64,000 nt of DNA from Rhodothermus bifroesti (GCF_017908595.1 NZ_JAGKTL010000001.1:1-64000); one strand, 5' to 3'. Counted from the first letter of the stretch, positions 4,146 through 28,948 are shown. Numbers and translations: made by a program. The notes: generated by a model not told the origin, from the sequence alone.

Positions 4146-7034
4146 ATGATGCATCCGACTCCCGGCAGTATCGTTCGATGCCGTAACCGTGAATGGGTGC
4201 TGCTGCCCTCAGACAACCCAGAGGTATGGCTTCTGCGCCCACTCACAGGTACCGAAGAGGACGTGGTGGTGGTCCACAAGGGCCTGGTGAACCTCGTCGG
4301 CTACAGCCTTCCTTTTGAGCGCGTTGAGCCTGCGACCTTTCCCTTGCCAAAGGCCGAGGACGTATCGGACGCCCAAAGCGTGCATCTCCTCTGGCAGGCG
4401 GCGCGGCTCACCTTGCGCGAAGGTGCCACGCCATTCCGATCGCTCGGTCGCATTTCGATCCGCCCGCGGACTTACCAGTTTGTGCCGCTTTTGATGGCGC
4501 TGCGGCTGGATCCAGTCCGGCTGTTTATCGCGGATGATGTTGGTGTCGGCAAGACGATCGAGGCACTGCTCATCGCCCGAGAGCTGTACGACCGCGGCGA
4601 AATTCGGCGCTTCTGCGTGCTATGCCCGCCGTATCTGTGTGACCAGTGGGCCGTGGAGATAGCGCAAAAGTTCAACCTCGATCCGGTGGTCATCCGTTCG
4701 GGCACCGTAAGCCAACTCGAGCGCCAAGTGCCGACAGGAAAAAGCATCTACGAGTACTTCCCGGTCCAGGTGGCGAGCATTGATTTCGTCAAGACCGACC
4801 GCAACCGACACCAGTTTCTTCAGTTTTGCCCCGAGCTCGTGATCGTCGATGAAGCCCACGGCGCGGCTGACGCCCAAGGGCGCACCCAGCAAGAACGCCA
4901 TGCCCTCCTTCGGGACGTAGCCAGGAACCCCGAGCGCCACCTCATCCTGCTCACGGCTACCCCGCATTCCGGCAAAGAAGACGCTTTCCGCTCGCTCTTG
5001 GGCCTCTTGTGCCCGGAATCGGCCCAATGGAACATCGCCAAGCTGGATGAACAACAGCGAGATATCCTCGCCAAGCACTTCGTGCAGCGCACGCGGGCCG
5101 ACATCCTGTCCACCTGGGAACCTGTAGCCCCCTTCCCCCAACGCGAGCCGATGGACGAGACCTACGAGCTTTCGGACCGGTACCGTGAGCTCTTCGATCG
5201 CACCTACGCGTTTTGCTCCGAGATCGTGCGCACTGGCGAACGGCTCGAGGAGCGCAAACGGCGGGTCCGCTACTGGGGGGCGCTGGCGCTGTTGCGCTGT
5301 GTGATGTCCAGCCCGGCGGCAGCCGTGGCCACGCTGGCCGCTCGGACTGGCATGGCTGTGGAAGGCGACGAAGAGCCCGAGTTTTCCTCCTATGTGCTCG
5401 AGTCGACGGAGAATCGCACCGACGACGAGACACCCACCCTGCCGGTGGAAGCAACCGAGGCGACCCTAGCCGACACCGACCGACGCCGGCTCCGGGAGCT
5501 GGCTCGCCTGGCCGAGCAACTCCGCGGACCTGACCAGGACAGCAAACTTCGCCGGGCCATCGAAATCGTGCAATCCCTCTTGCAGGAGGGCTTTCATCCC
5601 ATTCTCTGGTGCCGCTATGTGGCTACCGCAGAGTATGTGAAGGAACATCTGAAGCAGGCTCTTGGCCCCAATGTTCAGGTGGTATGCATCACCGGCCGCG
5701 TGCCCTACGATGAGCGGCAGATCAAGATCGCGGAGATCGACGCCGACCGACCGCGGGTCCTAGTTGCCACCGACTGCCTTTCCGAGGGGATCAACCTCCA
5801 GGAAAAGTTCAACGCAGCGGTCCATTACGACTTGCCGTGGAACCCGAACCGCCTTGAACAACGCGAAGGCCGGGTGGACCGCTTCGGCCAGCCGGCTAAG
5901 CGCGTGAAGGTGGTGCGCTTCTTCGGCAGGGATAACCCCGTAGACGGCGCGGTCATTCAGGTGCTTCTTGAAAAGGCGTGGCTCATCCACCAGACGCTAG
6001 GCACTCATGTGCCCGTGCCCCAGGAGGGCGAAAGCGTCCTTCAGGCCGTCCTCGAAGCCTTGTTTCTTCGGTCGCGGCGGCAGACCTCTCGGCAGTTGGC
6101 CCTGGACTTGGGCTTGCCTGAAGTGGAAGCCTTGCATCGCCGATGGGACCAGGATGTGGAGCGCGAGCGAATTAACCGCACCCGCTTCGCCCAGCGTGCC
6201 CTCAAGCCCGAAGAGGTGCAGCGGGAGCTGGAAGCCACCGATGCGGTGCTCGGCGACCCGGCGGCAGTGCGCGAGTTTGTGCTCGCAGCCGCCCAGCGGT
6301 TGGGCCTTTCGGTTACACCCGATCGCCGCTTGGGGGTTTTTCGGGTGGCTGTGTCGAAAGAAGCAATCGCAACTCTTCCCGAGGCGATTCGGTTGGCCCT
6401 ACCCTCCGCCAGGACTGGCTACTGGCTCGTTTCGTTCGAGTCCCCAACCCCCGAGGGCGCCGAGTATCTGGGCCGCAACCACCGCTTCGTGACCGCCCTG
6501 GCGCGCTTCCTCTTAGAGGATGCGCTCGCCGGTCGGGAAAAGCTCACCGTTTCCCGTTGCGGCGCCATTCGCACCCGGGCCGTGAGCGCGTTGACCACGC
6601 TGGCGCTGCTGCGGGTGCGCTACCTCCTCCAGCTGCCCGAGAGAGCCCCTCTTTTATCCGAAGAGGTGCTGGTGGTCGGCTGGCGAGGAGGCGGAAATAG
6701 CCCTCTCCAATGGCTCGAGGACGACGAGGCGTTGTGCCTTCTTGCCAAAGGGAAGCCGGATGCCAACATCCCGCTGGCGGAAAAGCGCGAGCTGGTGCAA
6801 CGGGCGCTGGAGCAGGTTGGCGAATGGCGAGGCACGAGTAGCGAGTGGGGCAGAGATAATGCTTTCCAAAAGGGGGTGCGAGAGCGGATTGACCGACGCG
6901 CTGGGCAACTGCTTGAGAGCCACAAACGGATCCGACAGGCGGTGTCCATGCGCGTGCGGGAGCTTGAAGTGAAGCCTCAGCTTCCGCCAGACCTTTTGGG
7001 CATTCTTGTCCTGCAACCGATGCTGCAGCCATGA
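4146..7034 (+). CDS. SNF2-type helicase/ATPase (DrmD-like candidate)
   Basis: A 962-aa superfamily 2 ATPase of the SNF2/HepA type, the first gene of the island. Motif I is DDVGVGKT (Asp130-Thr137), motif II is DEAH (235-238), SATPH-like motif III reads LTATPHSG, and the C-terminal RecA domain has LVATDCLSEGINLQ and EQREGRVDRFGQ. A long alpha-helical C-terminal region follows. Such proteins translocate on duplex DNA without unwinding. In DISARM class 1 a SNF2-like protein (DrmD) precedes an adenine methyltransferase (DrmMI), and that is the order here: the stop overlaps the methyltransferase start as ATGA. ATG is present at both 4146 and 4149; the upstream one is used. The DISARM assignment is by order and family, not by detailed similarity. 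Confidence 0.88.
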   Translation: MMHPTPGSIVRCRNREWVLLPSDNPEVWLLRPLTGTEEDVVVVHKGLVNLVGYSLPFERVEPATFPLPKAEDVSDAQSVHLLWQAARLTLREGATPFRSLGRISIRPRTYQFVPLLMALRLDPVRLFIADDVGVGKTIEALLIARELYDRGEIRRFCVLCPPYLCDQWAVEIAQKFNLDPVVIRSGTVSQLERQVPTGKSIYEYFPVQVASIDFVKTDRNRHQFLQFCPELVIVDEAHGAADAQGRTQQERHALLRDVARNPERHLILLTATPHSGKEDAFRSLLGLLCPESAQWNIAKLDEQQRDILAKHFVQRTRADILSTWEPVAPFPQREPMDETYELSDRYRELFDRTYAFCSEIVRTGERLEERKRRVRYWGALALLRCVMSSPAAAVATLAARTGMAVEGDEEPEFSSYVLESTENRTDDETPTLPVEATEATLADTDRRRLRELARLAEQLRGPDQDSKLRRAIEIVQSLLQEGFHPILWCRYVATAEYVKEHLKQALGPNVQVVCITGRVPYDERQIKIAEIDADRPRVLVATDCLSEGINLQEKFNAAVHYDLPWNPNRLEQREGRVDRFGQPAKRVKVVRFFGRDNPVDGAVIQVLLEKAWLIHQTLGTHVPVPQEGESVLQAVLEALFLRSRRQTSRQLALDLGLPEVEALHRRWDQDVERERINRTRFAQRALKPEEVQRELEATDAVLGDPAAVREFVLAAAQRLGLSVTPDRRLGVFRVAVSKEAIATLPEAIRLALPSARTGYWLVSFESPTPEGAEYLGRNHRFVTALARFLLEDALAGREKLTVSRCGAIRTRAVSALTTLALLRVRYLLQLPERAPLLSEEVLVVGWRGGGNSPLQWLEDDEALCLLAKGKPDANIPLAEKRELVQRALEQVGEWRGTSSEWGRDNAFQKGVRERIDRRAGQLLESHKRIRQAVSMRVRELEVKPQLPPDLLGILVLQPMLQP

Positions 7035-28948: not shown

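Follow-up and report, generated by a model that had tools for sequence, protein, structure and literature searches.

Roughly half of type III-C CRISPR-Cas loci have no HD nuclease site, which raises the question of how they could stop a phage. In the first 64,000 nucleotides of NZ_JAGKTL010000001.1 from Rhodothermus bifroesti (GCF_017908595.1; this whole stretch is called the window below), positions 4146-28948 carry a complete type III-C gene set enclosed by the genes of a restriction-like system of the ARMADA kind, and Csx11, the Cas10 protein of that set, has lost its HD site. The HD-less Csx11 clade is often nested among genes whose products attack DNA, which offers a direct and testable answer: the cassette might recognise RNA and leave the attack on DNA to its partner.

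Both halves of the locus, ARMADA and type III-C, are known, and it is their combination that appears to be new. The initial annotation knew of no described system of this composition, and none was found in the literature searched, subscription papers and supplements lying outside it. The same literature gave no published description of such a cassette in BREX or Hma operons.

The cassette and its partner genes

All genes of the locus lie on the plus strand, in the order SNF2 helicase, methyltransferase, cargo, cmr1, cmr6, csx11, cmr4, cmr5, cmr3 and YprA/DruE-like helicase (4146-28948). The initial annotation had given this order with its coordinates, and the open reading frames match it, with every gene intact. 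The identities it assigned agree with family profiles, and the gene it left as the last RAMP is cmr3. Apart from the cargo, the features are as follows.

4146-7034, plus strand: SNF2/RapA-like helicase, ArmA-like (PADLOC DpdE 604 bits, DrmD 292 bits; BrxHII-like)
7031-11077, plus strand: Eco57I/PglX-like adenine-N6 DNA methyltransferase, ArmB-like (PADLOC DrmMI 301 bits)
16103-17368, plus strand: cmr1 (RAMP) with an inserted PDZ domain (family profiles; PDZ at about residues 178-228)
17365-18435, plus strand: cmr6 (RAMP; family profiles)
18432-21512, plus strand: csx11, the type III-C Cas10 (TIGR02682 279.8 bits against an NCBIfam cut-off of 248.95; PADLOC Cas10c 384 bits)
21531-22667, plus strand: cmr4, the Cas7 backbone RAMP (family profiles)
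22651-23019, plus strand: cmr5, the small subunit (reading frame open from 22585, with 22651 the likely ATG start)
23022-23891, plus strand: cmr3, the Cas5-type RAMP (family profiles)
23888-28948, plus strand: YprA/DruE-like helicase with an MZB (DUF1998) domain and a C-terminal Vsr-fold nuclease, ArmC-like (profiles, structure model)

The complete type III-C set, cmr1-cmr6-csx11-cmr4-cmr5-cmr3, is found between armB and armC. The 4-base overlaps of ATGA type that had been described are present at 7031, 17365, 18432 and 23888, as is an 11-base overlap between a methyltransferase fragment and cmr1 (ATGAGCCATAA at 16103).

In the Csx11 of the window the HD motif is degraded to HM (H27-M28), and the aspartate has been lost in all 34 scorable members of its clade (HM in 33, HQ in one); most Csx11 proteins outside the clade still have HD. 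The Csx11 of the window shows no GGDD-type cyclase motif. A model of its N-terminal part matches Csm1/Cas10 with Z up to 14.3 over 268 residues, and no solved structure similar to Csx11 was found by sequence. Cmr4 retains the aspartate of the RNA-cleavage site (GRVDLTI), and the corresponding aspartate in other Cmr4 proteins cuts target RNA. Loss of HD and retention of this motif are direct observations. In a census of 1113 type III loci, type III-C lacked cyclase sites and known effectors, and about half of the type III-C loci had HD (PMC11229360). Because HD is lost, no cyclase motif was seen and type III-C in the census is without known effectors, members of the window's clade are expected to bind and cut RNA with no DNA-attack or signalling output of their own. 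The PDZ domain in Cmr1, which by similarity is also present in L041, L019 and L018 (loci and genomes are cited by our own labels), could be a docking point for a partner.

The partner genes had been described as DISARM-like. A restriction-like helicase-methyltransferase set is indeed present, but the assignment to DISARM did not stand, as the SNF2 protein does not reach the NCBIfam DrmD equivalog (333 bits against a cut-off of 610), and helicase and DUF1998 domain are found in one DruE-like protein with a Vsr-fold tail. ARMADA, described in a 2025 preprint, combines a BrxHII-like helicase and a PglX-like methyltransferase with a third protein, a YprA helicase that bears a C-terminal Vsr nuclease, and is related to DISARM and Druantia (PMC12458937). 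Anti-phage activity is proven for ARMADA type II, in which all four components tested are required, and in type I operons of many archaea and cyanobacteria SNF2 and methyltransferase precede the YprA helicase; the main text of that paper mentions neither Cas10 nor Csx11 (PMC12458937). In the window, a BrxHII/RapA-like helicase adjoins a PglX-like methyltransferase through the 4-base overlap at 7031, and a YprA-family helicase with MZB/DUF1998 belongs to the same gene set. The type II GajB-like helicase with a RelE-like domain is absent after the YprA gene, and the window order corresponds to the reversed ARMADA type I order. By protein features and gene order, with the helicase compared with cassette-free relatives only, these genes fit ARMADA better than DISARM.

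The catalytic motifs of all three partners are intact. The SNF2 helicase has Walker A GVGKT at residue 133 and DEAH at 235, the methyltransferase has NPPW at residue 751 and the S-adenosylmethionine motif DPACGSG, and the ArmC-like helicase, a single fused protein of 1686 residues, has GSGKS at residue 119 and DELH at 238. The last 130 residues of the helicase are modelled as a Vsr-type nuclease fold, with Z 9.5 against the I-Bth0305I nuclease domain and Z 8.4 against Vsr (1cw0); these matches came from VIA-align alone, and Foldseek gave no significant match. A conserved acidic/histidine pattern, DF..FxDGxxH...D...R, runs through this tail.

Recurrence and exchange of partners

A Csx11 profile scan of 84,980 species genomes yielded 80 loci, and the neighbour genes of loci were typed by PADLOC scans. 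The order SNF2-methyltransferase-cmr1..cmr3-DruE is repeated at L032 and L057, two loci of one Planctomycetota metagenome-assembled genome, which rules out chance co-location in a single genome. Homologues of the helicase and methyltransferase genes thus co-occur with Csx11 elsewhere, and the unit proposed by the initial annotation is not a one-off. The SNF2 protein, methyltransferase and helicase of L032 are ~30-36% identical to those of the window, and the SNF2 protein and methyltransferase of L057 ~52-81%. The three ARMADA genes are full-length at all three loci, although the L057 assembly contains frameshifts. At L029, a 73% identical helicase stretch follows cmr3 within a type I-G CRISPR locus. 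The arrangement and its recurrence are, like the motifs, observed directly.

Related cassettes lie in or beside other systems. In the BREX operon of L024, brxC and the N-terminal half of pglX are followed by MNT and HEPN-like genes, the cassette, the C-terminal half of pglX, pglZ and brxL; the MNT nucleotidyltransferase/HEPN-like pair, read by eye, occupies 7450-8200 between the pglX N-half and cmr1. L026 has brxA, brxC, a pglX N-half and the cassette, and L088:24-12806 has pglXI, an HD-type type III-C cassette and pglZ. Hma-type genes enclose or adjoin the cassette in G002, from the window's own genus, and in L016, L017, L020 and L047; L015, L035 and L040 retain remnants or parts of such genes. 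In L042 the cassette follows a methyltransferase, PDC-S11 and DrmD-like set, and in L021, L025, L027, L033 and L046 it lies beside type I CRISPR loci. Junctions with 4-base overlaps recur between cmr3 and the pglX C-half (L024), pglX and cmr1 (L026), methyltransferase and cmr1 (L032), and hmaB and cmr1 (L040). Such similar blocks in restriction-like operons across many bacterial phyla suggest that RNA recognition is wired to DNA destruction.

Helicase/methyltransferase operon context (ARMADA, Hma, BREX or PDC-S11 type), remnants counted, was found at 15 of the 36 loci of the window's Csx11 clade against 4 of the 46 other Csx11 loci (Fisher p 0.0006), a comparison of non-independent loci on often short contigs with uneven annotation depth, so that the preference of the clade for such operons is a strong hint and not a measured rate. 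A sharper contrast obtained from window-derived queries only was too strong; among the other Csx11 loci, PADLOC detected BREX genes at L088 and those of type I restriction at both L083 and L060, and the contrast was recomputed. No Csx11 match was found in phage records.

Exchange of partners is likewise observed. In the tree of Csx11 proteins, that of the window falls with the Hma-linked L015 and L016, L057 with L029 and L028, and L032 with L034. A single origin of the ARMADA-linked cassettes was rejected by a one-clade constraint (approximately unbiased test, p-AU 4e-7), a single group of Hma-linked rows was rejected too, and the tree needs at least nine partner changes. The Csx11 proteins of the window and L057 are ~29-47% identical and fall in different subclades, though their SNF2 and methyltransferase partners are close. 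Because the partners are close but Csx11 is distant, one slot must have been filled by different cassette lineages. Cmr6 was considered as a partner-specific subunit and discarded, as the three ARMADA-linked cassettes are ungrouped in the Cmr6 tree.

Two side observations concern other type III-C loci. L158, on a Thermus thermophilus plasmid (NZ_AP024271), has a cassette close to that of the window, broken by IS3 and IS701 and located beside a type I CRISPR locus. An AriA/PARIS-like ATPase gene occurs in or beside the cassette at the type III-C loci L068, L074, L081 and L087, and also L049, L090 and L093; it is joined by a second conserved protein in four loci and is a possible alternative type III-C output.

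The cargo and the flanks of the locus

Between the methyltransferase gene and cmr1 the window carries an insert of 4.9 kb, with a coding part at 11086-14778. Its features and the duplication that flanks it are as follows.

10931-11049, plus strand: first copy of a 119-bp direct duplication, the 3' end of the methyltransferase gene, identical to 15988-16106
11086-12285, plus strand: metallo-beta-lactamase-fold protein, weakly like LmuA and Avs1a
12817-14778, plus strand: 653-residue protein with no family match
14779-15742, no strand: ~960 bp in which no gene is convincing, with a strong GC skew (about +0.25)
15743-15970, plus strand: N-terminal remnant of another, diverged DruE/ArmC-like helicase (57-60% identity with intact ones)
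15988-16106, plus strand: second copy of the 119-bp duplication, whose frame runs 11 bases into cmr1, as in L057

The methyltransferase fragment of the initial annotation does overlap cmr1 as described; the fragment itself is the duplicated 3' end of armB, exact over 119 bp. The full-length methyltransferase gene of L057 likewise runs 11 bases into cmr1, with a geometry identical to that of the window fragment; in L032 the methyltransferase/cmr1 overlap is 4 bases, and the cargo is missing from both loci. Since the fragment duplicates the armB end and the N-terminus of the second helicase precedes the fragment, the cargo is a later, secondary insertion flanked by the duplication. The direct overlaps in the cargo-free L057 and L032 establish the ancestral order as SNF2-methyltransferase-cmr1-cmr6-csx11-cmr4-cmr5-cmr3-helicase, to which the metallo-beta-lactamase, 653-residue and non-coding block was added later.

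Read by eye, the 653-residue protein has one stretch that resembles a nuclease and, towards its C-terminus, the motif DISGSM, which is von Willebrand A-like, and together with the metallo-beta-lactamase-fold gene it possibly forms an undescribed two-gene defence module. The stretch at 14779-15742 shows no similarity to other loci, and an Rfam search of 1-36000 gave no match. Three explanations of the cargo were rejected: a diversity-generating retroelement as the source of the repeated methyltransferase end (the copies show no adenine-specific differences, and a reverse transcriptase is lacking), a transposon with inverted ends (no inverted repeats found in the window), and a part of the system itself, which L032 and L057 leave unsupported.

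The initial annotation treated all these genes as one operon. They form a co-directional unit, but a single transcript is uncertain, because the cargo ends in the ~960 bp (14779-15742) that hold no convincing gene. A search for consensus promoters and terminators gave matches only at chance level. The flanking genes on both sides are housekeeping-like, as judged from translations read by eye, and the next gene (29103-30692) reads as an FAD-dependent glycerol-3-phosphate dehydrogenase. Near the window end (63682-63993), three overlapping 156-nt direct repeats with a 78-nt period lie within a minus-strand open frame.

Proposed mechanism, its rivals and known systems

The hypothesis of RNA-triggered restriction can be laid out in steps, for which we infer guide use, contact between the two halves and activation of the partner. 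The Cmr1/3/4/5/6-Csx11 complex would load a guide RNA that originates outside this locus. In this genome only Cas6 and type I loci were found in trans: Cas6 is encoded twice, once each on contigs C2 and C5, and C5 also encodes Cas1, along with type I genes. The guide complex would pair with a phage transcript, which Cmr4, judging from its retained aspartate, may cut. With the HD aspartate lost and no cyclase motif seen, Csx11 would be unable to answer with its own DNase or cyclic nucleotides. Instead, the bound complex might flag invader DNA under transcription, together with the single strands exposed around it, as a target of the ARMADA enzymes, with SNF2 as translocase, the methyltransferase parting self from non-self, and the YprA-type helicase with its Vsr-fold nuclease destroying the DNA. 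A helicase-nuclease of the YprA type would be well suited to the single strands exposed where a target is transcribed, and the related DruE of Druantia III loads on exposed 3' single-stranded DNA and cuts (PMC13192584). Related cassettes could play the same role for BREX, Hma and type I CRISPR-Cas3, the cassette being an interchangeable RNA-recognition front end.

That the cassette provides RNA-guided recognition and delegates DNA attack to its partner in some form is the explanation we favour, at slightly short of an even chance. The broader proposal is less likely: HD-less, cyclase-less type III-C would be a general RNA-guided front end for ARMADA, Hma and BREX, whose attack on DNA it would switch on or direct to invader DNA under transcription, and guides would thereby arm innate restriction-like systems.

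Several observations weigh against delegated DNA attack. The only clean repeats of the exact arrangement, L032 and L057, share one genome. Same-phylum ARMADA operons with 55-67% identical SNF2 and helicase proteins carry no cassette, and at L161 and L160 the methyltransferase directly adjoins the helicase. Because such close relatives are without it, the cassette is an optional insert in ARMADA operons. HD-less cassettes without such a partner also exist, some beside CRISPR arrays (L022, L038, L039). No CRISPR array was found in the window, the sampled contig ends or the fetched cas loci, which cover the genome in part, and arrays can drop out of an assembly; four repeat patterns from sister genomes of the genus are absent. 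Finally, the armB/armC slot may be a general docking site. At L159 it holds a Fic-like gene, at L032 a DarT-like toxin and DarG-like macrodomain antitoxin lie between cmr3 and the DruE-like gene (~15250-17000, by eye), and in the window it is the cargo that lies between armB and cmr1.

These points lead to the main rival, in which the two systems are housed together with no direct coupling: the armB/armC slot is a docking site, the cassette is an ordinary RNA-cutting type III-C system, and the shared operon serves joint regulation and transfer. The variety of genes in the slot (Fic-like, DarTG-like, metallo-beta-lactamase plus 653-residue protein) fits this explanation, as do the cassette-free ARMADA relatives, the stand-alone clade members beside arrays, the retained Cmr4 aspartate and the swapping of partners on the tree. 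However, RNA cutting alone is generally not thought sufficient for type III immunity, which counts against it, and it leaves unexplained both the preference of the HD-less clade for helicase/methyltransferase operons and a cassette within a split pglX with 4-base overlaps. We consider it a serious possibility that nevertheless falls clearly below an even chance.

The cassette could also travel as a passenger, entering defence operons by recombination and using their promoters, so that split and truncated host genes are damage. The split pglX in L024, an hmaA cut after ~95 residues in L020 and the C-terminal part only of hmaB in L040 look like such damage, and in the window the stray piece of a helicase gene, like the 119-bp duplication, shows illegitimate recombination at the slot. 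The full-length ARMADA genes at all three loci speak against this, as do the tight in-frame junction overlaps that recur across different systems and the lack of inverted repeats in the window; constant ends were not noticed either. We regard the passenger explanation as improbable. Less probable still is a regulatory role, in which the RAMP complex would control ARMADA, for instance through RNA-gated methylation, by acting on its own operon transcripts or on some dedicated non-CRISPR RNA and not on phage RNA. In its favour, the searched parts of this genome hold no array, and a 960-bp non-coding, GC-skewed stretch lies unexplained just upstream of the cassette. Against it, that stretch is part of the cargo, which L032 and L057 do not have, ordinary CRISPR arrays and cas6 are found next to relatives, and this genome encodes Cas6 twice.

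If delegated DNA attack is correct, adaptive RNA-guided recognition would have been joined to innate restriction-like systems several times through cassette exchange; the arming of restriction-like systems by RNA guides might then be a new principle.

One of the known systems nearest to this locus is CRISPR-Cas type III-C, with which the cassette shares all six subunits, a Csx11 equivalog and the lack of a cyclase motif reported for that type. Unlike type III-C, it has no adjacent array, cas1 or cas6, has lost HD, is enclosed by ARMADA genes and bears a PDZ domain in Cmr1. DISARM class 1 has homologues in the window of its SNF2-like DrmD, its DrmMI-like methyltransferase and its DUF1998 (MZB) domain; however, its drmA helicase and drmB DUF1998 genes are separate, whereas in the window they are fused with a nuclease tail, and drmC, the phospholipase-D-like gene whose absence the initial annotation had pointed out, has no counterpart among the open reading frames of 4146-28948. 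The closest PADLOC models of the ArmC-like gene are Druantia DruE (308 bits), of the same YprA family, but the window has a Vsr-fold and not a phospholipase-D nuclease and has SNF2 and methyltransferase partners, and no DruA-D or DruH was seen. The BREX and Hma operons with a nested cassette (L024, L026 and L088; G002, L016, L017, L020 and L047) enclose or adjoin a related RAMP cassette, often through overlapping junctions, and differ in that the partner is a system other than ARMADA. ARMADA type I has the same three proteins with a Vsr-fold C-terminus and, unlike type II, no GajB-like ArmD; the window differs from it in carrying a type III-C RAMP cassette and cargo between armB and armC.

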